From Paraburkholderia hospita (lineage in GTDB: Bacteria > Pseudomonadota > Gammaproteobacteria > Burkholderiales > Burkholderiaceae): a DNA stretch of 64,000 bases. The notes under the pieces were generated by a model. It ran no database searches and was not told the DNA's origin. It saw only the letters and a list, made by a program, of their open reading frames with translations. Shown here in pieces: positions 18,278-44,656 of this stretch. Each line of letters begins with the position of its first letter. Position 1 is the stretch's first letter. The stretch spans positions 1,798,001 to 1,862,000 of the forward strand of contig NZ_CP026106.1 of assembly GCF_002902965.1 (NCBI RefSeq). Reading direction: 5' to 3'. The position numbers were made by a program, and so were the translations under genes.

Positions 18278-19374
18278 CGCGCCACTCCGATGATGTTGCC
18301 CTGCCGGTCGATCGCGAACATCTCGACTTCGACCGACGCGGGCACGATGTCGCGCGCCACATCGCGCGCAAGTGCGCAGACGATATCGCCGAGCGGCACG
18401 CCTTTTTCCCGTGCCATCGCGAGCGCTTCCTGGCTCGTGTTCGCGCCGACGATAGCGGCTTGCAACGCGGCGTCGCTCGCGGCATGTCCGGCCGACCACG
18501 CGGCGAGTTGCGGCAAGTCGATGCTCGAATTGCGGCTATGCAGATCGAGATGCCCCGCCGCGAGTTTGCTCAGCTTGCCGAAGCCGCCGCACATGCTGAG
18601 CTTGTCGACGGGCGCGCGCTTCAGATGCTTGAGCACCGCGCCCGCGAAGTCGCCCATCTCGATCAGCGCGATATCGGGCAACCGGTAGTAAGCGCGCATC
18701 GCGTCTTCGCTCGCATTGCCCGTACACGCGGCGATATGCCGATAGCCGTTCGCGCGCGCGACGTCGATGCCCTGATGGATCGACGCGATATACGCCGAGC
18801 ACGAAAACGGCCGCACGATACCCGTCGTGCCGAGTATCGACAGCCCGCCGACAATGCCCAGGCGCGGATTCATCGTCTTCTGCGCCAGCGCTTCGCCGTT
18901 CTCGACACCAATCGTCACTTCGAAGCCGCCCGCGTAGCCATGCTCGGCGGCCAGTTCGGCGAGATGCGCGGTCATCATCTGACGCGGCACCGGGTTGATG
19001 GCCGGCTCGCCGACGGGCAGCGTGAGGCCCGCGCGCGTCACCGTGCCGACGCCCGGCCCCGCATGAAAACGCACGCCGGGTTCATCGGCGAGACGCACGC
19101 GCGCGAACACCACGGCGCCGTGCGTGACGTCGGGATCGTCGCCCGCGTCCTTGACGGTGCCCGCTTCGGCGCCGTCCTTACCGCCGTCGATCAGGCGGCA
19201 GAACACGAGTTGCATCGGCACATGCTGGCCTTTCGGCAGCACGATTTCCGCGACATCGCTCGCGATACCCGACAGCAGCAGACGCGCCGCCGCCAGCGAC
19301 GTCGCCGTCGCGCAGCTTCCCGTCGTGTAGCCGCTGCGCAGCGGCGCGGGTTGTTCGGGCGTTTCGTCGCGCAT
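18274..19374 (-). CDS. cbiD: cobalt-precorrin-5B C(1)-methyltransferase
   Basis: A 366-residue protein. The start [11 protein letters not shown] shares its A with the cobL stop (TGATG). The family signature [20 protein letters not shown] is near residue 12, and a Gly-rich motif [19 protein letters not shown] is in the middle. CbiD methylates C1 and belongs to the cobalt-first (anaerobic-type) route, where it does the job of the unrelated CobF. No cobF is seen in this window, so CbiD probably fills that step although CobG and CobN indicate the oxygen-dependent route. Confidence 0.92.
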
Positions 19375-20582
19375 CACGGTTTGCGGGTGTCGAGTAGCGT
19401 GATCGGCAGCGCGGAGCGCCACGTTTCGAAGCCGCCGAGCGCCTGCGCCTCGGCAAGCGCGATACGTGTCAGCGTGCCGCCGTGCTGCGCGCGCCACGCG
19501 ACGAGCGCCGCCTCGCCTTCGAGCGTGACGGCGTTCGCAATCAGCCGCCCGCCTTGTTTCAACGCGCGCCAGCAGGCGTCGAGCACACCATGCGCGGTCA
19601 CGCCGCCGCCGATGAAAATCGCGTCGGGCGCGGGCAGGCCTTGCAATGCGTCAGGCGCCTTGCCTGCGATCAGTTGCAGTCCGGGCACGCCGAGCGCGTC
19701 GCGATTGTGCTCGATGAAGCGCTGACGTTCGCCGTTCGCTTCGATCGCTATCGCGCGGCAACTGGCGTGCGCGCGCATCCATTCGATACCGATCGACCCG
19801 CAGCCTGCGCCGACGTCCCACAGCAGTTCGCCGGGCGCGGGCGCAAGGCGTCCGAGCGTCAGCGCGCGCACGTCGCGCTTCGTCAACTGGCCGTCGTGAC
19901 GATAGGCGTCGTCGGGCAGTCCCGGTGTCAACGCGAGCCGTGGCGCATCGGACGACGCATCGCGCCGGCAATCGAGCGCGATCACGTTCAACGACGCCGT
20001 CTCGGCGATCGACCAGTCGTGCGCGCGAGCGTCGATCAGGCGTTCGGATGCGCTGCCCAGATGCTCCATCACGATCATGCGCGTCGCGCCGAAGCCGCGT
20101 TCGACGAGCCATGCGGCGACGGCGGCAGGCGTCGCGCCGTCCGCGCTCAGCACGAATACGCGCGCACCATCATGCAGATGCATCTGCAACGCGGCAAGCG
20201 GCCGCCCGACCAGCGACACGGTCGCCACATCCTGCAACGCCCAGCCAAGACGCGCCGCCGCAAGCGACACCGACGACGGCGCGGGCAGCACGCGTAATTG
20301 ATCGGCGGCAACGTAGCGCGCGAGCGTCGCGCCGACGCCGTAGAACATCGGATCGCCGCTCGCCAGCACGCACACGGGCGTGTCGCGCCGCGCGAGCACG
20401 GGTGCGATGTCGAACGGATGCGGCCAAGGCTCGCGCGCGGCGGACAGGCACACGGGCAGCATCGCCAGATGCCGTTCGCCGCCATAGATCACGGACGCGT
20501 CGATCAGCGCGCGCCGCGCCGTTTTCCCCAGGCCGGCAAAACCGTCATCGCCCATTCCCACCACGGTCAGCCACGCCGACAT
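19374..20582 (-). CDS. cobL: precorrin-6Y C5,15-methyltransferase, decarboxylating (CbiE-CbiT fusion)
   Basis: A 402-residue bifunctional enzyme. The start at [19 protein letters not shown] is preceded by GAGG. Residues 1-200 form the CbiE-type tetrapyrrole methylase ([20 protein letters not shown]). Residues 230-402 are the CbiT-type Rossmann methyltransferase ([20 protein letters not shown]). It methylates C5 and C15 and removes the C12 acetate carboxyl. It is the first gene of the leftward unit; its promoter must lie in the roughly 100 bases shared with the divergent riboswitch-controlled unit. Confidence 0.94.
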
Positions 20583-20683
20583 GCGTCGATCCTCATCTGC
20601 TTGCTGTACTGAAAACGCTGCTGCGGGCCGTGTTTCAAGGCTGCGGCATCGTTGTGCTGTTCGAAAAAAGGCATAATACCCGT

Positions 20684-20942
20684 TCGCCGGTGCCTTTCGG
20701 GGCCTAAGAGGGAACACACATCACTGCGATGACCGTGACTGCCCCCGCAACTGTATGCAGCGAGTCCACGCCAACGCGCGCCACTGGAAAACCCGGGAAG
20801 GCCCGGCATGGACGACCTGTGAGTGCTTTGCATGGGACCAGAGTAAGACGCTAAAGCGTCAACTCTGGTCGACAGCTTTGCATGGGACCAGAGTAAGACG
20901 CTAAAGCGTCAACTCTGGTCGACACAGGACACCTGCCGGCCA
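20684..20942 (+). promoter_or_regulatory. cobalamin riboswitch upstream of cobG, with insertion
   Basis: Conserved blocks are in order: GCCGGTGCC (P1/P2 side), TAAGAGGGAA, GACTGCCCCCGCAACTGT (near 20740), CCACTGG, CGGGAAGG and finally CAGGACACCTGCCGGC, whose CCGGC closes P1. Between GTGAGT (about 20824) and CAGGACACC (20925) sit exactly two 50-bp repeat units that are absent from the riboswitch consensus. A possible -10 element CATAAT lies at 20672-20677. The element should lower expression of cobGHI-cbiG/cobJ when adenosylcobalamin is plentiful, unless the insertion has changed it. Confidence 0.9.
20825..20924. repeat. two perfect tandem 50-bp hairpin units inside the riboswitch
   Basis: The copies 20825-20874 and 20875-20924 are identical. 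Each contains nested inverted repeats: outer arms GACCAGAGT/ACTCTGGTC and inner arms GACGCT/AGCGTC around AA. Each can therefore fold into one long hairpin of about 34 nucleotides. I see no other copy in the window. The form is REP- or MITE-like, but no transposase is linked. Confidence 0.85.
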
Positions 20943-21040
20943 ACAGTTCGTGCCAGCCAACATCGGGCGGGGTGTACCGATGCCGAGCCGCTCTCCTTCG
21001 AGATGCCCGGGCCGTCGCGCGACGTTAACCCGGTGATGTC

Positions 21041-22429
21041 TTGAGCCACGCTTTCCATTCGTCCGACGCTTCCGCCTTGCGCCCTTCGGCTTGTCCGGGG
21101 CTGTTGCGCATCGTGCCCGCGCTCGACGGCGGCATCTGCCGCGTGAAGCTGGCAGGAGGCGAGTTGAGCGCAACGCAGGCGCTCGCCATTGCTGGGGCGA
21201 TCGACGAACACGCGTCGGGTATCGTCGACATCACGAATCGCGCGAACCTGCAATTGCGCGGCGTGAAGCGCGGCCATGAAGACGCCCTCGTTGCAGCGCT
21301 GCTCGACGCGGGCCTCGGCCCGCAGAACATTGAGCACGCATTCGCCGACGACGTGCGCAACGTAATGATCAGCCCAGCGACGGGCCGCGATGCGAACGCC
21401 TTATTCGACACAACCACGCTCGCTGGCGATCTGCTGACACTGCTGCAAAGCGACACGCGTTTCGCCGCGCTGTCGCCGAAATTTTCGCTGATGCTCGATG
21501 GCGGCGAACGTCTGATGATGCTCGATCATCCGCACGACATCTGGTTTTCGGCGATGCCGCATCCCGCGCGTTCGGTTGTGTTGTTCGCATTCGGCCTCGC
21601 TGGCTGTCCGCCCGTTGCTGCGGAACATGAGAGCGCATTAGCCACCGTTACGGCTTCGGATCTTGCAACGTTCACGCGAGCGCTCGTGCACACGTTCCTC
21701 GACCTCGCCGCGCCGGACGATACCCGCATGCGCGATCTGCTCACCGCGCATTCCATCGAAAGCATCATCAAGCACGCCGAACGCAAAAGCGGCGTACAGG
21801 CGTTGCGCGACGCGTCCATCGAACGCTGGCGCCGCGAACCGGCTGATGCATCGCGAAGGCTCGGCGCGCATCGACAAAACGACGGACAACGCTGGCATGT
21901 CGGCGCCCAGCCCGCGTTGGGCCGTATAAACAGCGCGACATTGCGCGGCCTCGCCGAACTCGCACGCGGCAACGAACGCGCGACGCTGCGCATGACGCCA
22001 TGGCAAAGCGTGATACTCACCGACATCGACACAGCGAACCTCGACGCCACATTGCAAACGCTCGAAGCGCTCGGCCTCGCCACCACCGCTGACAATCCGC
22101 TAACCCGCGTGATCGCGTGCACCGGCTCGACAGGCTGCGCGAAGAGCCACGCCGACACCAAAGCCGATGCCCTGAAGCTCGCCGCACACGTGCCCGAACA
22201 TACGCAAGTGCATCTCAGCGGCTGCCCGCGTTCATGCGCGGCCGCGCACCGCGCGCCCTACACGCTGCTCGCAGTGGCCGACGGCCGCTACGACCTGTAC
22301 CAGACACACGACCCGCGCGACGCCAACGGCTTCGGCCGATGCATCGCGCGCGGTCTGACGATCGACGAAGCCGCGGAAGTGCTACAAGCGTCCGCCCTTC
22401 CCCCAACTGATGAGCCATTCGATGCTTGA
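21041..22429 (+). CDS. cobG: precorrin-3B synthase (siroheme/Fe-S monooxygenase)
   Basis: A 462-residue protein of the nitrite/sulfite reductase fold. The only plausible start is TTG at 21041, because a TAA lies a few codons upstream in frame; initiation is probably weak. Two half-domains are visible, and cluster ligands appear as CTGSTGCAKS near residue 363 and SGCPRSC near residue 395. CobG uses O2 to hydroxylate C20 of precorrin-3A, the diagnostic step of the aerobic pathway. First gene of the rightward unit, about 100 bases after the riboswitch. Confidence 0.92.
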   Translation: MSHAFHSSDASALRPSACPGLLRIVPALDGGICRVKLAGGELSATQALAIAGAIDEHASGIVDITNRANLQLRGVKRGHEDALVAALLDAGLGPQNIEHAFADDVRNVMISPATGRDANALFDTTTLAGDLLTLLQSDTRFAALSPKFSLMLDGGERLMMLDHPHDIWFSAMPHPARSVVLFAFGLAGCPPVAAEHESALATVTASDLATFTRALVHTFLDLAAPDDTRMRDLLTAHSIESIIKHAERKSGVQALRDASIERWRREPADASRRLGAHRQNDGQRWHVGAQPALGRINSATLRGLAELARGNERATLRMTPWQSVILTDIDTANLDATLQTLEALGLATTADNPLTRVIACTGSTGCAKSHADTKADALKLAAHVPEHTQVHLSGCPRSCAAAHRAPYTLLAVADGRYDLYQTHDPRDANGFGRCIARGLTIDEAAEVLQASALPPTDEPFDA

Positions 22430-23048
22430 CTACATCCGCGACGGACAGGAAATTTATCGCCAGTCGTTCGCGACGATACGCGCGGAAGCCGACCTCACGC
22501 GCATTCCCGCCGACCTCGAAAAACTCGCCGTGCGCGTGATCCATGCGTGCGGGATGGTCGATATCGTCGGCGATCTGCGCTTTTCGGAGGGCGCGGGCCG
22601 TGCGGGGCGCCAGGCGCTCGCCAACGGCGCGCCGATACTCTGCGACGCACGCATGGTCGCCGAAGGCATCACGCGCGCGCGGCTGCCCGCGCACAACGAA
22701 GTGATCTGCACGCTGGCCGATCCGTCCGTGCCCGCCCTCGCGCGCGAGATGAACAACACGCGTTCGGCGGCGGCGCTCGAATTGTGGCGGCCACATCTGC
22801 CTGGCAGCGTCGTCGTGATCGGCAATGCGCCGACCTCGCTCTTTCATCTGCTCGACATGCTCGATAGCGGCGCGCCGCGCCCCGCGCTAATTCTCGGCTT
22901 CCCGGTCGGCTTCATCGGCGCGGCGGAGTCGAAGGCGATGCTCGCCGCCAATAGCCGTGGCGTGCCGTTCGTCGCCGTGCAAGGCCGGCGCGGCGGCAGC
23001 GCGATGGCGGCGGCCGCCGTGAACGCGCTAGCATCGGAGGACGAATAA
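22410..23048 (+). CDS. cobH: precorrin-8X methylmutase
   Basis: A 212-residue protein. An alternative in-frame ATG lies four codons later at 22422; both overlap the cobG stop. Family motifs are [32 protein letters not shown] (His44 region, the proton-transfer histidine), [10 protein letters not shown] and [10 protein letters not shown]. It moves the C11 methyl to C12, giving hydrogenobyrinic acid. Its stop overlaps the cobI start (TAATG). Confidence 0.94.
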
Positions 23049-23806
23049 TGGCCGATCAGGCGAACAGCACGCGCGGGCGTCTCTATGGTCTCGGTGTCGG
23101 TCCCGGCGACCCGGAGCTGATCACGGTGAAAGCGCTGCGGCTGCTGAAGTCGGCGCACGTGGTCGCGTACTTCGTCGCGAAGGGCAAGAAAGGCAACGCG
23201 TTTTCGATCATCGAGTCGCATCTGTCGAGCGAGCAGGAACAGTTGCCGCTCGTCTATCCCGTGACGACGGAAGCGCTCGAGCCGCCGCTATCGTACGAAG
23301 CGATCATCGCCGACTTCTACGACACGGCCGCCGAAGTGGTCGCGAAGCACCTCGATGCGGGACGCGACGTGGCCGTGATTTGCGAAGGCGATCCGTTCTT
23401 CTACGGCTCGTACATGTACCTGCACGACCGGCTCGCCAACCGCCTCGCGCCACGCTTCGAAGGCGAAGTGGTGCCCGGCGTGTGCTCGATGCTCGGTGGC
23501 GTCGCCGTGCTCGGCCAGCCCCTCGTGTATCGCAACCAGACCTTGTCGGTGCTGTCGGGCGTGCTGCCCGAAGACGAACTCAAGCGCCGTCTCGCCGCCG
23601 CCGATGCCGCCGTCGTGATGAAGCTCGGCCGCAATTTCGACAAGGTGCGCCGCGTGCTCGACGAACTGGGACTCGCGGAGCGCGCGCTGTACGTCGAACG
23701 GGCGACGATGGCGAACCAGCGCATCGTGCCGCTCGCCGAAGTCGATCCGATGGCGTCGCCCTACTTCTCGCTGCTCGTCGTGCCGGGGGAAAAATGGCAA
23801 GGCTGA
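23048..23806 (+). CDS. cobI: precorrin-2 C(20)-methyltransferase
   Basis: A 252-residue tetrapyrrole methylase with [20 protein letters not shown] at residues 9-28 and [18 protein letters not shown] near residues 110-127. It transfers the second SAM methyl to C20 of precorrin-2. The start overlaps the cobH stop, and the 3' end overlaps the cbiG/cobJ start by 13 bases. Confidence 0.94.
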
Positions 23807-27943: not shown

Positions 27944-30900
27944 TCAGAAGCCGATCGTCACGCCTGCCGACGCGCCCGTGTTGGCACCATTGCCCGTGGC
28001 GCGCGTCACGTGTGCGTTCACGAGGACGCGATCGTTGACCCAGTAGTTCGCGCCGATGGCGACGGCTGCCGCCCCGCCATACGTGCCGGCTGCCGCCGAC
28101 ATCTGGAAGTTGCCTTCCGCGCGCGCATTCGGGATCAACGAGGTCGCTGCCATCGCCGCTGCACCCAGCGAGTTCATCTTGTCGTTCATCTTGTTGAACT
28201 GGCTGTCGGTGTACGAGTTCGCCTGGTTCACCGTGTTGTTGCTGGCGTTCGTAATCGCGTCGTTCAACTGGCCGACGTTGACTGCGTCGGTGGTTGCCGT
28301 GCCCGCTGCGACGTTCGTGACGCGACGCTGCTGGCTTGCGGAACCGACGGACACGGTGTTGTCTTCCGACGCCACCGAGCCTGCGCCGAGCGCGACCGAG
28401 TTGTTGCCGCTCGCTGTCGAGTTCGCGCCGATTGCGACGGCGTTGCTGCCCGTTGCATTCGATGCATAACCCGTCGCGACCGATTGCAGACCGTTCGCAA
28501 CCGACAGCGCGCCCATTGCTGTAGCGTGCGTGCCGCCTGCCTTCGCCTGTTCCGTGTTGCGGTCGCCATCGCCGACGAACAACGTATCGACACCCGTGCC
28601 CGCGTTGCTGATGCTGTTGACCTTCGACACCAGGTCCGCGTACTGCGAGTAGTTCACCGCGTCGGTGTCCTTCTCGCCCGCTGCAACGTTGTGGATCCCC
28701 ACCGGCTTGGACGTCGGCGTACCGTCACCCAGCGTGATGTTGCTGAAGTCGGTGACTTCCTTGCCGCTGTCGTCCTTCACGGTGTTGTACGTCACAGCCT
28801 TCTTCATCGAACCATCGCCGTTGATGATGCCTGCCGCCTTCAACTGCGCGTTGTTGACAGCGTCGTTGTCACCCGTACCGGCTGCGACGCCCGAGAGAAC
28901 ACGAGCACCGTCCTTGCCCGTAAAGTCGACGATCGAACCATCCGTCTGCGATGCAACGAGAATGTTCTTGCTCGTCGCGTTCTGCGTCACGAGACCAATA
29001 CCGCCTTCATTGATCTGCGTTTGCAGGTTCGTGATGTCGGTGCTGTTCGCGTACACGCGGGCGTCGAGGTTCGTGATCGCTCCGCCGATCGTCGTGACCG
29101 TCGAGCCGCCCACGATGTACGTCGGGTTGCTGATCGTGCCGTCGGTCTTCACCGTCGAACCGCCGCCGATCACACTGGCCGTCGATGCCGCCACGTTATA
29201 CAACTGCGTGCCGTTCACCGCGTCGAAGCTCGATGCGTTCACGTTGCCCGCCGCCACGCCCGTGAGCCTGCGAGCACCCTTCGTGCCCGCGAAGTCGACG
29301 ATCGAACCGTCCGTCTGCGATGCCACGAGAATGTTCTTGCTCGTTGAGTCCTGCGTCACGAGTCCGATGCCGCCTTCGTTGATCTGCGTTTGCAGGTTCG
29401 TGATGTCGGTCGCGTTCGCATACACGCGGTTGTCGAGGTTCGTGATCGCGCCGGCGATGTTCGTGATCGTCGCGCCGCCGATGTTGAACGTCGGGTTCGT
29501 GATCTTGCCCGTCGAAGGATCGAACGACGAACCGCCGCCGATTGCATCAGCCGTCGATGCCGCCACGTTGTACAGCTGCGTGCCGTTCATCGCGTCGAGG
29601 CTCGATGCGTTCACGTCGCCTGCTGCCACCTTGGTGATCTTCGTGCCCGTTGAGCCTGCCAGCGTGATCTGGGTCTTGTCCTGGTCGTCGTATACGACAC
29701 CCAGTGCATTACCCGAACCCGCAGCGTTGTTCAGCGCCGTCAAGGCGTCGGCAACGTTGGTGTACGTTCCGCCTCCGAACGTGTACGCCGGCGCCGTGAT
29801 CTCGCCCGTCGCCGTGTTGATCGATGCGCCACCGCCGAGTGCCTTGGCCATCGACGTGCCCTGCGCGTACAACTGCGAACCGTTGATGGCGTCCGTGCTT
29901 GACGCGTTTAGCGCACCTGCCGTCAGACCTGTGATCTTCGTTCCGGTCGCGCCCTTCAGCGAGATTACGTCCTTTGTTGAACTGTCGTAATCGACGGCGA
30001 GCGGGTCGCCACCCGAAGCGATGCGCGTATCCAGCGAAGTCAGCGCAGCGGCCACGTTGACGTATGTGTTGCCCGCCAGCGTGTACGCTGGTGCAACGAC
30101 TGCGCCTGTTGTCGGGTTGACGGAAGCACCGCCGCCGAGGGCGCCTGCGATGCCTGAGAGCTGCGAAACGTTTACGGCATCGTTGTTCTGCGTACCGGCT
30201 GCGACGTTGATGATCTGGCGTTGGCCGCCGGACTTGGCATTGCCGACCGAAACGATGTTGGAGCGGCCGCCGTCTGCGCTGGCGTAGCCGAGCGTAACGC
30301 TGTTCGAACCCGACGCCAAAATGTTCGTACCGATCGCCAGCGTGTTTACGCCGCCAACCTGCACGTTGTTACCGATTGCAATGCCACCGTTTGCTCCCGG
30401 TACCACCGTCGAACTGTTGTTGCCGATAACAATCGCATTGTCAGCGGCTGCCGTAACGTTCGTACCCATCACCACAGTGTTCAGGCCGTCGATTGCAATC
30501 TGCTGCCCGATACCAACCGATCCATCCCCCAGCGTCCGAACATTGACACCAACGGAGACTGCATTGTCAGCCGTCACCTTCGAATTCAGGCCGATCGCCA
30601 TCGAGTCCGTACCCGTAGCCTCGATTTGACCGGCCTTGTCGGTCGGTCCCGACACGATCAGTTCTTCCGGCGGCAAGCTTGACGTAGGAGAAGCTCCGAG
30701 CAGTGAAGTCGAATGCACCGCCGACTTCAGCAGGCCAGAGTTGCTCGTCCCGTGCAGACTCAGATTTGCGATAGCTGCTTGAATGTCCGAATTCACCTGG
30801 CCAACGGTCGCTGCGTCCGTGTCGTCGATACCGTTCGCGACGTTCACGATACGTCGCTGGGTGAACGAATTACCCACCGCGAACGTGTTGGCCACGTTGG

Positions 30901-33900
30901 CCTGAGAGCCATAACCGATTGCTACAGCATTCGCCGCCGTGGCGAAAGCCGAGCGACCAATGGCGAGCGCGTAGTTTTGGTTAGCAACTGCATTCCCGCC
31001 GATTGCGATCGAATCGGTACCCCCTGCCTGTGCCGCCACCGCCGTGCTCGGGCCAAACTTGATGTACTTCAGGCTATTCAGGAAGCCGTCAGAGCTCGTG
31101 AGGCCTGCCAGTGCGCTACCCACGTCCGAGTACGTCTTACCGAGCACGTTATACGCCGGCGCCACGATCGAACCATTCGTCGCCACCGATGCGCCTGCAC
31201 CCAATGCAGCCGTCACGCCCGCGAGCTGCGAAACGTTGACTGCATCGTTGCTTTGCTGACCAGCCGCCAGGTTCACGATCTGACGTTGCGCGCCCGCGGA
31301 ACCCACTGATACCGTGTTATCGCGATCCGCGACCGATTTCGCACCCAGTGCCACGGCGTTCGATGCCGTCGCCACTGCCGCCGGACCTGCCGCGACACTG
31401 TCAGTACCCGTTGCCGATGCAGCCGCCAGTGACGAGCTCACACTGAAGTACTTCATGTTCGCGCCGCCGTTCGCGATGTTGTTGACGGTGTTGCTCAGGT
31501 TATTGACCTTCACATCCTCCGCCATCAACTGGCTCACGTTCACCGCGTCCGTGCCTGCATAACCCGCGGCAACATTCGTGATGCGACGCTCCTTACCCTG
31601 CGCGCCCACCGACACTTCGCCGAAAGCCGTCATACCCGACAGCGTCGCGCCACCCGGTGCAAAGCCAGCCGAGCCCAGCGTCGACGAGTTCGCCAGCGAG
31701 TTCGAGCCCAATGCCACAGAGTTCGCAGTCGACGCCGTTGCCGCACCGCCGATCGCCACGCTGTCCTTGCCCGATGCCGACGAGTCACCCAGCGTCGAAT
31801 TGGCGTGGAAATACTTGATGCCGTCGCCGTTGATGATGTTGTTGCCGAAGTTCTGTACCAGGTTGTTCAGGTACGTAACGTTGTTCGAAACGTTATTGAC
31901 CTTACCATCTTCAGCCATCAACTGGCTCACGTTCACCGCGTCCGTGCCGGCATAACCCGCTGCCACGTTCGTGATACGGCGATTGAAGCTTCCATTGCCC
32001 ACCGAGACTTCGCCTGCCGCCGTCGTGCCCGAGAGTGTTGCGTTGCCCGGGTTGTACGCCGTTGCCGACAGATTGGCCGACGTCGTCGAATTCGAGCCGA
32101 GAGCGACCGATTCAGCGGAGGTTGCGCTCGCGTTGTAGCCAACCGCGATCGCGTTCGTGCCCGCTGCCGTCGCTTGCGGCCCCACGGCGATTGCATTCGC
32201 ACCCGATGCCGTCGAGTCAACCAGCGACGAATTCGTGTGGAAATACTTCATCGAGACGTTGGCGCCGATGTTGTTGACGACGTTACTCAGGTTGCTGAGG
32301 TTATTGCTGACGTTGTTGACCTTTACATCTTCGGCCATCAACTGGCTGACGTTCACTGCGTCGGTTGCGTTATAGCCTGCTGCAACGTTCGTGATGCGAC
32401 GCTCCTTGCCCGATGTGCCAATCGACAATTCACCGAAGGCCGTTCCGGCCGTCAGCGCTGCGTTGTCCGGTGCGAAACCCTTCACGCCCAGCGAGCCCGA
32501 GCTTGCGACCGAACCCGAACCCAGTGCGACCGAGTTCGCGCCCGATGCGATTGCACCACCGCCGATCGCCACCGATTCCGCGCCCGACGCAGACGAATCT
32601 GCCAGCGTCGAACTGGCGTGGAAGTACTTGATACCACCACCGTTCACGACATTGTTGAAATTCTGGGTGAGGTTCGTGACGTTGTTGCTGACGTTCGACA
32701 CTGCGCCGTCGAGCTTCGAGATCGCCGTGCCGACATCAGTTGCCGTCGTGCCTTGCACGGTGTATGTCGGCTTCTTGATCGAGCCGTCGGCGTTCACCGT
32801 TGCGCCGCCGCCGAGTGCAGCCGTCACGCCGGATAGCTGCGAGACGTTGACTGCGTCGGTGTTTTGCGTGCCTGCTGCGACGTTGATGATGCGGCGTTGC
32901 AGCTTGCTGCTGCCCACAGATACGACGTTCGCCATGCCACCGTCAGCACTTGCGTAGCCGAGCGTAACGCTGTTCGAACCCGACGCCAAAATGTTGGTAC
33001 CGATCGCCAGCGTATTGACGCCGCCAACCTGCACGTTGTTACCAATCGCAATGCCGCCATTCGCTCCCGGCACGACCGTCGAACTGTTGTTGCCGATAAC
33101 GAGTGCATTGTCTGCAGCCGCCGTTACGTTCGTGCCGATCACCACGGTATTCTGACCGTCGATGGCAATCTGTTGCCCGACGCCAACCGATCCAGTCCCC
33201 AGCGTACGGACATTGACGCCTGTGGCAAGTGCATAATCAGCATCAGCCTTAGAGTTCAGGCCAATCGCCATCGAGTCCGTACCCGAAGCCTCGATTTGAC
33301 CGCCCTTGTCGGTCGGTCCTGACACGATCAGTTGTTCTGGCGGCAAGCTTGAAGTTGGGGTAGCACCAAGGAGTGAAGTCGAATGCACCGCCGACTTGAG
33401 CAGACCAGCATTGGTCGTCCCGTTCAGATTCAGATTCGCGATTGCTGCCTGAATGTCAGAACTCACCTGGCCAACGGTCGCTGCATCCGTGTCGTTGATA
33501 CCGGCAGCGACGTTGACGATACGGCGTTCTGCGCCCGCACTGCTCACCGCAAACGTATTAGCCACGGTTGCTGCCGAACCGTAACCGATCGCCACTGCGT
33601 TCAGAGCCATCGCTCTTGCGCCGTTACCGATCGCGACAGAGTTGGTACCTGTCGCATAAGCATTGCCAGCGATCGCTACCGAATTGGAACCAGAGGCCTG
33701 GGCATAACCGGGCATGCTCGGCCCAAATCCAATCTTGTCCGTGGATTGTGTGATATTGGCGACCGCATCACCAACGTTCGAGTAGGTCGAACCGCGCACC
33801 ACGTATGCAGGCGCAGAGACGGAACCATCCGCGGCGACGGTTGCGCCGCCGCCCAGCGCATTCGTCATGCTCTTCATTTGCGCCACGGTAGCCGGATCGG

Positions 33901-35677
33901 TGTCGATCGCCACGCCCGACAATGCCGACGATTTCAGAACCGTCGTCGGCTTGATCACATTCGCGATTTGGGTCTCAAGATCAGAACCCATCTGGTTCAT
34001 CTGCCCGACCGTAGCCGCATCCGTGTCGCTTACGCCATCAGCAACGTTGACGATGCGACGCCGCGTGAACGAATTGCCCACCGCGAACGTGTTAGCCACA
34101 CCGGTCTGAGAACCATAACCGATTGCAACAGAGTTCAAGCCGGTAGCAAAAGCAGCACGTCCAATAGCAACTGAACCGTTCGCGCTTGCGACCGCGTTGC
34201 CGCCCAACGCAATCGAATCATTACCGCCTGCCTGCGCTTGATCCGCCGTACTTGGGCCAAATTTGATGTACTTCAAACTCTCAACAATATTGCCCGTGGC
34301 ACTCGAAATATTCCCGAGCGCATCACCCACGTTCGAATACGTATTGCCATAAACGTTGTACGTCGGCTGAGCGATAGAACCATCGGCCTTCACCGATGCC
34401 CCACCGCCCAACGCCGCCGTCACGCCGCTCAGCTGCGACACGTTGACCGCATCGGCGGGCGCCGTACCGGCAGCCAGGTTCGTGATCTTCGTCGCGCCGC
34501 CCGCGCCCTGCAGCGTGATCTGGTTCTTCGACGCATCGTCGTAGGCAACAGCGAGGGGACTATCTCCGCCCTTCGACTTGTCGATCGCCGTCAGCGCTGC
34601 GCCAACGTTGTTAAAGGTGCCATCGGCGACGACGTACGTCGGGTTCGTGATCGCGCCCGTCGTCGAATTGAAGCTCGCGTTGCCGCCCAGCAGCGCGGCC
34701 GTGTTCGCGCCCATCTGGTTGACCTTCGCGTTCGCCGACATCAGTTGGCTGACGTTCACCGCATCCGTTGCGCTATAGCCGGCGGCCACGTTGGTGATCC
34801 GGCGCTCCGATCCGACGCCGCCGATCGACAGTTCGCCGCTCGCGGTTCCCGCGGACAAAGCGGCGTTGCCTGCGTTGAAGCCGGCCGATCCAAGCGTGGA
34901 CGAGTTCGCGACGGAACCCGAACCCAGCGCGACCGACTTCGGACCCGTCGCGCTTGCACCTGTGCCAAGCGCGACCGAATTATTACCCGATGCGCTCGCC
35001 AAGACGCCCTGTGCAATCGACGAGGCACCCGAGGATACGGCCGCCACGCCCACCGCAATACTCTCCGAGCCCGATGCTGCCGAGTCAGTTTGCGTCGAGT
35101 TGGCGTGGAAGTATTTGACGCCGCTCAGGGTGTTGATCGCGTTGAACAACTGCGAACCATTGACCGCATCCGTGCTGGCAGCCGAGATCGCGCCTGCGGC
35201 GACGCCATTCAAGAGCACGTTGCTGCCCGAGGCCTTCATCCACAGCTTGGACGTCCCGTCCGGGGAAAACAGGATCGTCTTGTTGGCACTATTCATGTCG
35301 ATCTGCGTGTTGGCGGCATACAACTGCAGAGCGTTCGTAGTGTTTGGATTTGTGCCGTCTAGCCAGGTCGTCTCCGACGCGATCGCTGGGCAACCCGTAG
35401 CGAAGTTGGAGCCGCTTTGAGCGCCGCCGCGGCTGTCGTACGCCTTCGTCCCATCGCTGTTCGTCACGCAGATACCCGACGCCATGGCGAAATCCGGCGT
35501 GAATGCACCAAAGCCCACACACAGCGGCGCAACGACAGCTGCAAGCGCGAACTTGCCGGTAGCGATAGCCGCTCCGGTGCCCGAGGAGGACCTTTTGCCC
35601 CGTCCTTTAGCGTTCTCCTGCGCCGCAACCCATGTTCCCGTCGATTCGTTCCAAACTGAACGATATGTCTTATTCAT
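27944..35677 (-). CDS. giant trimeric autotransporter adhesin (YadA/Hia family)
   Basis: 2577 residues. The start at MNKTYRSVWNESTGTWVAAQ opens an extended signal peptide region (ESPR), and AGGA stands six bases upstream. After the signal sequence (about residue 65) come many YadA-head repeats of the form S-x-A-[IL]-G-x-x-[AS]. They alternate with neck/connector motifs (DAVNVSQL, DAATVGQ, AAGxxxTDAV). A stalk rich in SSxDAxNGSQLY repeats occupies residues about 1950-2350. The C-terminal 75-90 residues are the YadA membrane anchor, ending GASAGVTIGF. It would form a trimeric surface fibre for adhesion, autoaggregation or serum resistance. It is co-directional with the OmpA-like gene. Confidence 0.95.
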   Translation of the reverse strand: MNKTYRSVWNESTGTWVAAQENAKGRGKRSSSGTGAAIATGKFALAAVVAPLCVGFGAFTPDFAMASGICVTNSDGTKAYDSRGGAQSGSNFATGCPAIASETTWLDGTNPNTTNALQLYAANTQIDMNSANKTILFSPDGTSKLWMKASGSNVLLNGVAAGAISAASTDAVNGSQLFNAINTLSGVKYFHANSTQTDSAASGSESIAVGVAAVSSGASSIAQGVLASASGNNSVALGTGASATGPKSVALGSGSVANSSTLGSAGFNAGNAALSAGTASGELSIGGVGSERRITNVAAGYSATDAVNVSQLMSANAKVNQMGANTAALLGGNASFNSTTGAITNPTYVVADGTFNNVGAALTAIDKSKGGDSPLAVAYDDASKNQITLQGAGGATKITNLAAGTAPADAVNVSQLSGVTAALGGGASVKADGSIAQPTYNVYGNTYSNVGDALGNISSATGNIVESLKYIKFGPSTADQAQAGGNDSIALGGNAVASANGSVAIGRAAFATGLNSVAIGYGSQTGVANTFAVGNSFTRRRIVNVADGVSDTDAATVGQMNQMGSDLETQIANVIKPTTVLKSSALSGVAIDTDPATVAQMKSMTNALGGGATVAADGSVSAPAYVVRGSTYSNVGDAVANITQSTDKIGFGPSMPGYAQASGSNSVAIAGNAYATGTNSVAIGNGARAMALNAVAIGYGSAATVANTFAVSSAGAERRIVNVAAGINDTDAATVGQVSSDIQAAIANLNLNGTTNAGLLKSAVHSTSLLGATPTSSLPPEQLIVSGPTDKGGQIEASGTDSMAIGLNSKADADYALATGVNVRTLGTGSVGVGQQIAIDGQNTVVIGTNVTAAADNALVIGNNSSTVVPGANGGIAIGNNVQVGGVNTLAIGTNILASGSNSVTLGYASADGGMANVVSVGSSKLQRRIINVAAGTQNTDAVNVSQLSGVTAALGGGATVNADGSIKKPTYTVQGTTATDVGTAISKLDGAVSNVSNNVTNLTQNFNNVVNGGGIKYFHASSTLADSSASGAESVAIGGGAIASGANSVALGSGSVASSGSLGVKGFAPDNAALTAGTAFGELSIGTSGKERRITNVAAGYNATDAVNVSQLMAEDVKVNNVSNNLSNLSNVVNNIGANVSMKYFHTNSSLVDSTASGANAIAVGPQATAAGTNAIAVGYNASATSAESVALGSNSTTSANLSATAYNPGNATLSGTTAAGEVSVGNGSFNRRITNVAAGYAGTDAVNVSQLMAEDGKVNNVSNNVTYLNNLVQNFGNNIINGDGIKYFHANSTLGDSSASGKDSVAIGGAATASTANSVALGSNSLANSSTLGSAGFAPGGATLSGMTAFGEVSVGAQGKERRITNVAAGYAGTDAVNVSQLMAEDVKVNNLSNTVNNIANGGANMKYFSVSSSLAAASATGTDSVAAGPAAVATASNAVALGAKSVADRDNTVSVGSAGAQRQIVNLAAGQQSNDAVNVSQLAGVTAALGAGASVATNGSIVAPAYNVLGKTYSDVGSALAGLTSSDGFLNSLKYIKFGPSTAVAAQAGGTDSIAIGGNAVANQNYALAIGRSAFATAANAVAIGYGSQANVANTFAVGNSFTQRRIVNVANGIDDTDAATVGQVNSDIQAAIANLSLHGTSNSGLLKSAVHSTSLLGASPTSSLPPEELIVSGPTDKAGQIEATGTDSMAIGLNSKVTADNAVSVGVNVRTLGDGSVGIGQQIAIDGLNTVVMGTNVTAAADNAIVIGNNSSTVVPGANGGIAIGNNVQVGGVNTLAIGTNILASGSNSVTLGYASADGGRSNIVSVGNAKSGGQRQIINVAAGTQNNDAVNVSQLSGIAGALGGGASVNPTTGAVVAPAYTLAGNTYVNVAAALTSLDTRIASGGDPLAVDYDSSTKDVISLKGATGTKITGLTAGALNASSTDAINGSQLYAQGTSMAKALGGGASINTATGEITAPAYTFGGGTYTNVADALTALNNAAGSGNALGVVYDDQDKTQITLAGSTGTKITKVAAGDVNASSLDAMNGTQLYNVAASTADAIGGGSSFDPSTGKITNPTFNIGGATITNIAGAITNLDNRVYANATDITNLQTQINEGGIGLVTQDSTSKNILVASQTDGSIVDFAGTKGARRLTGVAAGNVNASSFDAVNGTQLYNVAASTASVIGGGSTVKTDGTISNPTYIVGGSTVTTIGGAITNLDARVYANSTDITNLQTQINEGGIGLVTQNATSKNILVASQTDGSIVDFTGKDGARVLSGVAAGTGDNDAVNNAQLKAAGIINGDGSMKKAVTYNTVKDDSGKEVTDFSNITLGDGTPTSKPVGIHNVAAGEKDTDAVNYSQYADLVSKVNSISNAGTGVDTLFVGDGDRNTEQAKAGGTHATAMGALSVANGLQSVATGYASNATGSNAVAIGANSTASGNNSVALGAGSVASEDNTVSVGSASQQRRVTNVAAGTATTDAVNVGQLNDAITNASNNTVNQANSYTDSQFNKMNDKMNSLGAAAMAATSLIPNARAEGNFQMSAAAGTYGGAAAVAIGANYWVNDRVLVNAHVTRATGNGANTGASAGVTIGF
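30260..30778 (-). repeat. internal duplication, copy 2, of the adhesin head
   Basis: This 519-bp stretch (adhesin residues about 1634-1806) is close to identical, without net insertion or deletion, to 32930-33448. The shared protein core includes LLKSAVHSTSLLGA, SSLPPE and VPGANGGIAIGNNVQVGGVN. Confidence 0.85.
32930..33448 (-). repeat. internal duplication, copy 1, of the adhesin head
   Basis: Partner of 30260-30778 at a constant offset of 2670 bp (890 codons); adhesin residues about 744-916. Such long near-identical segments in frame could recombine and shorten or lengthen the fibre without breaking the frame. Confidence 0.85.
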
Positions 35678-35900
35678 TTGCAATCCTATATAAGGCAAGC
35701 CGATTTTTATTCTGCTCAATCCCACGTCAGCAACTTGCTGTTTGTTCCACCGGCCATACGAATCGCCGGTTCCGTCATGCCCGAATTGCGCAAACCTCCG
35801 CACCCCCGAGACGCTTGGGCTTCGAACCGACAACGGACAAGAAGATCAAATAGCAGGCAAACCTGGCGGATAAAAGATATGAAAATGCTTCGGCTAGCTG

Positions 35901-42756: not shown

Positions 42757-42963
42757 GGTGGCTCCGTAGCTCGAAATGCGTTCGAGTGACCTCGAAGTCG
42801 CGCGCCGTCCGTACGGCAAGCGATGCAAGGTCATAAGTGATACACGGGGACGAAAACGGCGCCGCATGGGCTTCGCAGCCCGATCGATCCGGGCGCGAAA
42901 CCGCGCTGCGACGCATGAGGAACAGTGAACGCAGTGCCGCATCCCCGCAGCATGGCGTCGTTT

Positions 42964-43206
42964 TCTCGGGCCGGTATCCGGGCTGATGAAAGCGCCGCCT
43001 CTCCTTCCCGCGCGAGCGTTTTCGCGCAGTGGATTGTCTGCATGGGCCGCTATTGGACGCACATGCAGCGAGGCCGGCTCTGCATCGTCTACGCGATGCC
43101 TTCACCTACCGTTGCGGGGAGCAGCATAGTTTGGCCGGCGCCTGTGCGCACAGCCTGCTATTTCCCGTTTAACTGCGCGCGCAGAGAGCGCGCGCGAGCA
43201 CCAGAG
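42964..43206 (-). promoter_or_regulatory. cobalamin riboswitch upstream of cobW-cobN
   Basis: Read on the minus strand the blocks are CTGGTGCTCGCG, GTTAAACGGGAA, CTGCTCCCCGCAACGGT, CCACTGCGCG, CGCGGGAAGG and AGCCCGGATACCGGCC, all in the canonical order. About 200 further bases lead to the cobW start and contain GC-rich complementary segments that could form the expression platform. There is no insertion like that in the cobG riboswitch. Confidence 0.93.
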
Positions 43207-43249
43207 TGCGTGCGAGTTTAGGCCCGCCGGCAGGTAGCGTCAAGGAGAG

Positions 43250-44105: not shown

Positions 44106-44247
44106 TGACCACCCTTGGGCTTTACCACCAATACTGCTTGAAAACAGTTTTCGAATTTGTCGAAACACGGCGAGAACCACCATCGGGCAGGCACGCCGGA
44201 AAACCCCGCGCCGCCCGCCCTCAGGGGCCGGTGTGCTATCGTATTGG

Positions 44248-44498
44248 CGCATCTGGTGCCCCGCCGGCTCGACGGCTGGCGGGGTTAAACGGGAAACAGG
44301 GAAGCGTCTTCACATCGCGCTCGCAAAACGAGCGAACCACGCGAAACATGAAGCCGCCTGGCCTGTGCTGTCCCCGCAACGGTCACGCGGCGAGCGGAAT
44401 GAAGCATGTTCCGCGCAGTGCGTTCAAGGCCACTGCCTGCAACCCGCAGGTGGGAAGGCGAACGCGATGAGCCGTCAGCCCGGATACCGGCCAGGTGC
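44248..44498 (+). promoter_or_regulatory. cobalamin riboswitch upstream of cobA
   Basis: Blocks in order: CTGGTGCCCCGCC, GGTTAAACGGGAAACAGGG, an enlarged peripheral stem-loop around GCTCGCAAAACGAGC, then CTGTCCCCGCAACGGT, CCACTGCC, GTGGGAAGGC, GCGATGAGCCGTCAGCC and CGGATACCGGCCAG. About 160 bases separate it from the cobA start. It should control the cobA-cobE-cobO-cobB-bluB unit. Confidence 0.93.
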
Positions 44499-44656
44499 AA
44501 GGGGGCGAGAACCTGATCGCCATTCGCTGGAACCGCGGGAAACGGATACCAGCGCCCACGCGCGGCGCCGGCTCAAGCAGCCGTCGCGCGTCACACGCAA
44601 CATCGCATGACCTGTCACACACAAGCGCCCGCCCGTGCAGCGGCGCTCTCCTTGCC

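Follow-up and report, generated by a model that had tools for sequence, protein, structure and literature searches.

A cobalamin riboswitch ahead of cobG in Paraburkholderia hospita is split, inside the conserved 3′ motif of its aptamer, by two identical 50-nt hairpin units. The units belong to a clade-wide repeat of head-to-tail hairpins, the arrays of which mostly adjoin a Shine-Dalgarno sequence in 5′ untranslated regions, and in a relative whose leader is empty AGGA is found solely at the insertion point. An earlier, sequence-only reading of this locus had described a B12 riboswitch interrupted by two perfect 50-bp hairpin repeats, which our analysis upholds; the repeat family and the character of the insertion point go beyond it. 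We consider it probable that a dispersed hairpin repeat, mobile or recombining, enters 5′ of AGGAG-like sequence and that the B12 motif was hit as a Shine-Dalgarno mimic.

Results

The window, by which we mean the whole 64,000-nt stretch of P. hospita DNA analyzed, holds the riboswitch in a B12 setting, with cobG and further cob genes downstream. The aptamer agrees with RF00174 in matching the model over its full length, above the gathering score, upstream of such genes. It differs in that its conserved 3′ motif, which we take to be the B12 box, is split by 100 nt of repeat, where 26 of 30 orthologous leaders have the motif whole. One empty leader, L037, serves as reference in the feature list.

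20671–20954, + strand: cobalamin riboswitch aptamer with 100-nt insertion (RF00174, cmscan 57.9 bits, gathering score 31.5, model positions 1–189)
20811–20824, + strand: left flank GACGACCTGTGAGT, the 5′ part of the conserved 3′ motif (from the sequence; joins CAGGA directly in L037)
20825–20874, + strand: hairpin repeat unit 1 (repeat search, fold)
20875–20924, + strand: hairpin repeat unit 2, identical to unit 1 (repeat search)
20925–20937, + strand: right flank CAGGACACCTGCC, the 3′ part of the conserved motif (from the sequence)
21041–22429, + strand: cobG (precorrin-3B synthase), the first gene downstream (TIGR02435, E 8.4e-109; open reading frame)
22410–23048, + strand: precorrin-8X methylmutase gene (NF006136, E 1.5e-111)
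23048–23806, + strand: precorrin-2 C(20)-methyltransferase gene (NF004647, E 3.1e-134)
19374–20582, − strand: divergent upstream gene for a CbiE/CbiT-type precorrin-6Y methyltransferase (TIGR02467 and TIGR02469; start codon picked by eye)

The uninterrupted motif AGYCAGGANACC is absent from this riboswitch, in which 100 nt lie between AGT and CAGGA. The left flank terminates in GACCTGTGAGT at 20824 and the right flank starts at 20925, placing the insertion exactly between GAGT and CAGGACACCTGCC. L037 has the motif whole: GTGAGT is followed directly by CAGGAAACCTGCC, a base-exact empty site that reads GACCTGTGAGTCAGGAAACCTGCC, and comparison with it reveals no target duplication. The normal contiguity of the two halves and the exact 100-bp insert, both posited earlier, are borne out by this straight read-through. 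The CAGGA of the right flank resembles the CAGGAGA found 3′ of other arrays.

In a repeat search, the two units are 50-nt direct repeats with 100% identity, and a 46-nt core of the unit matched twice in the window and never in 100 shuffles. A single unit folds by itself into a hairpin (−23.2 kcal/mol, z −5.3), as expected from the earlier proposal that each unit closes on itself. Because the unit is nearly palindromic, the two can also pair with each other as one long hairpin (−52.7 kcal/mol). Each is laid out as GCTTTGCATGGGAC, hairpin, GTCGACA. The identity of the copies fits the recent duplication suggested previously but does not prove it, and the copy number of exactly two in the window rests on one assembly. 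A known Rfam family for the unit was rejected: a lax scan of 20800–20960 returned four matches, all below their own gathering scores.

A 711-base query that took in the leader and the beginning of cobG had matches in 59 of 98 relatives' genomes searched, and 30 loci were fetched (L031–L060, P. hospita included). Four leaders carry unit-like sequence and 26 have none. Beside P. hospita itself (L031), L032 from genome G001, whose coordinates are those of Paraburkholderia largidicola PGU16, has one unit identical to the window unit over 50 nt and in the same position. L034 (G021), whose cobG matches that of Paraburkholderia sp. LEh10 across 500 bases, has one diverged unit at the same nucleotide position. 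L033 (G020) has a truncated remnant, part of the motif missing, of which the first ~20 nt match the P. hospita and G001 units. The empty leaders read as uninterrupted consensus and bear no scars; they include L037, whose cobG matches that of Burkholderia sp. Ac-20365 across 500 bases. Two more leaders that could be named, those of sp. Tr-20389 and sp. C35, are empty as well, and in sp. E7m39 the motif of the leader is divergent and no unit was seen.

The exact junction pattern occurs in 4 of 144 same-genus genomes, namely P. hospita, G001, G021, and G117; the G117 match lacks the unit and was set aside as a chance, non-riboswitch match. Family-wide, the pattern occurs in 4 of 398 genomes, and matches at L137, L138, and L140 were discarded, having no unit and looking like coding sequence. 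A looser genus pattern allowing three mismatches was noisy, with matches in the reversed control as well, and is excluded from these counts. The riboswitch insertion is confined to four related genomes and so amounts to a single event or a few.

The inserted leaders fail to come together as a single group on a cobG tree of 30 rows: four changes are needed, at least three of them forced by well supported branches, and the window row is sister to an empty row (support 99/98). The insertion label is not clustered on this tree, since shuffled labels average 3.9 changes against the 4 observed, and the tree alone does not separate gains, losses, and recombination. When the G021 unit was searched in eight genomes, it found units at other loci and not the riboswitch units of P. 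hospita and G001. Its global identity is 43/56 to the unit at an LLM gene and 40/56 to the window unit, a small difference. This suggests a separate origin for the G021 unit, from what seems to be a different subfamily.

These data bear on whether the riboswitch was entered only once. A single old insertion, made patchy by losses and by recombination among relatives, would leave its position uninformative about target choice. The identical, identically placed P. hospita and G001 units and the matching start of the G020 remnant speak for it; the ungrouped inserted leaders with their forced changes, the scarless empty leaders, and, by its small margin, the affinity of the G021 unit for other loci speak against it. 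On balance we regard a single insertion as possible, if somewhat doubtful.

The genome search that the sequence-only reading had called for was run with a 71-base query from the window that does not include the Shine-Dalgarno sequence; it gave 38 matches in the P. hospita genome, making up 26 separate arrays. At 22 of the 26, GGAG starts 1–4 nt past the final GTCGAC and a start codon follows 4–11 nt after GGAG. Of the other four, one is the riboswitch array itself, L145 has AGGA but no GGAG behind it, and L005 and L018 have neither. Of 26,125 positions in the array flanks, 1.65% have GGAG within 11 nt, and a binomial at this rate gives 9e-36; because that null ignores the placement of arrays in 5′ regions, the value shows an association and not its cause. 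One further array before a Shine-Dalgarno sequence, at pstS (L221), falls outside the 26. The arrays at an MFS gene and in the riboswitch start in the same phase, GCTTTGC. As a separate observation, L144 (G000:C2:975429–975699 of the P. hospita genome) is a five-unit array with longer, near-identical spacers, also before a Shine-Dalgarno sequence.

Only some start codons behind arrays were checked as genes; the ten proteins concerned, seven of them from P. hospita, fall into unrelated NCBIfam families such as MadL, acyl-CoA transferases, ThiC, GlgC, LpxD, and PstS. A cstA-like gene is also among the unrelated downstream genes. At L095 (G100), a TPP riboswitch (RF00059, 61.7 bits) at positions 1676–1794 on the − strand has a hairpin array behind it, outside the TPP aptamer and terminating ahead of the thiC Shine-Dalgarno sequence.

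Across the genus, a hairpin-plus-AGGAGA pattern occurs in 121 of 144 genomes, with 0 matches throughout for the reversed-pattern control, and a start codon lies 2–15 nt after AGGAGA in 29 of 30 sampled loci. In the family sample the hairpin–Shine-Dalgarno pattern is present in 132 of 398 genomes, from 4 of 25 genera. Without the Shine-Dalgarno demand, the pattern matches in 27 of 30 genomes, the reversed control giving 3 matches in 2 genomes. Among 69 listed rows from six relatives, 27 run on into a further whole or partial unit, and the other 42 are array ends: 32 of these have a GGAG-like motif or AGGAC in the next 11 nt, and 10 have neither, one of the 10 not being unit-like.

The stem is maintained across this diversity. 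Over 51 distinct units, pairing holds in 95.6% of pair cells, and 8 of 13 pairs change on both sides; 0 of 500 shuffles reach any of five covariation measures, and slid controls pair at 21–38%. The ends TGCATGG and TCGAC are invariant in the 51-row alignment.

Filled and empty sites were compared at five loci, the MFS, LLM, madL, acyl-CoA ligase, and aldo/keto reductase genes. At the MFS gene, 2–3 units are present in P. hospita and in three records of the P. largidicola group; the array is missing, and GGAGACAT before the ATG is retained, in PGU19, two P. caribensis records, and P. phymatum. The sites at this gene differ by a few extra bases. At the LLM gene (L128, L129, L130), PGU19 has one unit, P. 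hospita two, P. caribensis MBA4 about three, and P. caribensis 852011 none, the last having CGGAGA preceded by unrelated sequence. AGGAGAC is retained without an array at madL in Caballeronia grimmiae and at the acyl-CoA ligase gene in Burkholderia stagnalis and Caballeronia sp. M1242. At the aldo/keto reductase gene the entire stretch differs in Caballeronia insecticola and C. grimmiae, and B. multivorans has GGAGGA before the ATG. The Shine-Dalgarno sequence is thus present without the array in most, not all, pairs, and array copy number varies between relatives.

RF00174 scores were obtained for 11 loci. Seven leaders without a unit score 113.5, 106.4, 103.4, 98.6, 97.1, 92.2, and 74.5 bits, and those with a unit or remnant 77.2 (one unit), 68.2, 66.3, and 57.9 (two units) bits. 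A fall of ~20 bits per unit is the expected cost of an insertion that long, and the rest of the aptamer appears to be retained; the motif halves persist on both sides of the insert and the score stays over threshold. In the Infernal alignment of the inserted forms, the unit end, instead of the original GAGT, is placed on the strand before CAGG. Forcing the helix that we presume to be P6 costs 5.8 kcal/mol with two units, 2.1 with one (L032), and, for three leaders without a unit, 3.8, 0.0, and 0.0, values that do not clearly set the inserted forms apart. It may be that the aptamer can fold despite the insert, the hairpins projecting from the base of P6 as additional arms, and switching is probably altered.

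Discussion

The riboswitch insertion coincides with a sequence that looks like the usual neighbor of the repeat. The 187-nt empty leader L037 contains a single AGGA, located where the insertion falls, and no GGAG, TCCT, or CTCC. The window junction, GTCGACA-CAGGA, is among the commonest junctions at Shine-Dalgarno sequences (GTCGACA-CAGGAGA). No ATG, GTG, or TTG lies within 15 nt after the riboswitch CAGGA, and the cobG start is ~100 nt downstream; a role beside a start codon therefore cannot explain the riboswitch copy. In the explanation we favor, a mobile or recombination route would take the repeat into DNA directly 5′ of AGGAG-like sequence, and the motif CAGGA(N)ACC would have been hit as the sole AGGAG-like sequence in the leader.

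A tentative extension, which we hold to be conceivable rather than probable, makes the repeat a non-autonomous mobile hairpin whose insertion is cued by the Shine-Dalgarno sequence (TCTCCT on the opposite strand). Such an element would place tandem hairpins ahead of unrelated genes, in their 5′ untranslated regions, and would have invaded the B12 riboswitch on at least two occasions, each time at one and the same base, through target mimicry. On that other strand the hairpin would follow TCTCCT, an arrangement that would suit a Y1-type single-strand transposase, possibly of the REP type. IS200/IS605-type Y1 transposition uses hairpin substrates and inserts beside a short fixed motif with no visible target duplication. 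A hairpin inserted next to a short motif without visible duplication would fit that scheme. A Pfam PF01797 search of the genome gave three Y1 matches, two with an internal stop, and none has a unit within ~1.5 kb (E up to 10), so no transposase is linked to the repeat. L143 (1126–1833, − strand) is a solitary Y1-domain open reading frame of 235 aa with no flanking units.

The enrichment beside Shine-Dalgarno sequences could also come from selection for a role there. The hairpin would then be a cis-acting RNA element, a translation enhancer, stability element, or protein site, with no sequence-directed insertion, and the riboswitch copy would reflect chance or functional recruitment. Strong stem covariation, an orientation and position fixed relative to start codons, and the unrelatedness of the downstream genes (glgC, thiC, lpxD, cstA-like, madL, pstS) all agree with this reading. 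Covariation, however, fits hairpins recognized as DNA too, and the CAGGA of the B12 motif is not a Shine-Dalgarno sequence. We prefer target-directed entry to selection alone mainly because the riboswitch copy has no start codon behind it, and rate the cis-element explanation as unlikely.

The remaining two alternatives had been anticipated by the sequence-only reading. Identical tandem copies are a classical place for copy-number error, but the independent assemblies behind L032 and L034 have the unit at the same base and P. hospita has 26 arrays of other sequence, which makes an assembly artefact very improbable. Scarcely any weight attaches to the insert being a normal variable arm of the riboswitch class: other B12 riboswitches in P. 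hospita and relatives are likewise long (245–285 nt), but we rejected a normal peripheral domain because a relative shows a base-exact empty site, 26 of 30 orthologous cobG leaders have no insert, only 3 of 144 same-genus genomes have the junction (plus the one chance match), and among 30 fetched riboswitch loci only that of G001 has a convincing unit.

The repeat resembles known elements in part. REP elements and REPINs, as PMC3733652 and PMC2817692 describe them, are short palindromic hairpins scattered outside genes, with compensatory changes in their stems, and to that extent the window repeat shares with the REP/RAYT (TnpA-REP) system a dispersed extragenic palindrome with conserved pairing. 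It differs in lacking the unpaired GTAG or CGTC tag (in the 51-row alignment GTAG is absent and CGTC arises only by stem chance, its GTC paired), in forming head-to-tail arrays of ~50-nt units that end beside a Shine-Dalgarno sequence, and in flanking none of the three Y1 matches. The TAACTGA direct repeats of marine Beggiatoaceae, as PMC4679880 describes them, are intergenic, tandem, and just upstream of the start codons of unrelated genes, a placement shared by the window repeat; they are heptamers with no hairpin that overlap or replace the ribosome binding site, whereas the window repeat consists of ~50-nt hairpins that leave the Shine-Dalgarno sequence intact. The earlier remark that no repeat invasion of a cobalamin riboswitch had been described agrees with our literature search, which covered few subscription papers and found no title or abstract on this repeat or on a repeat-split cobalamin riboswitch; so far as it shows, the repeat's effect on translation and its route of spreading are without prior study.

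If these readings hold, closely related species offer a natural experiment in which a riboswitch core carries zero, one, or two added hairpins at a single defined base, and the tolerance of the cobalamin aptamer becomes directly testable. They would also reveal a clade-wide repeat with hundreds of copies beside Shine-Dalgarno sequences, including a copy that separates the thiC Shine-Dalgarno sequence from a TPP riboswitch.

Elsewhere in the window lie two more cobalamin riboswitches, at 42952–43220 (− strand, 41.1 bits) and 44237–44509 (+ strand, 71.9 bits), which have long variable arms without the repeat unit. Positions 27944–35833 (− strand) encode a 2629-aa open reading frame with repeated motifs that, by eye, are like those of trimeric autotransporter adhesins.
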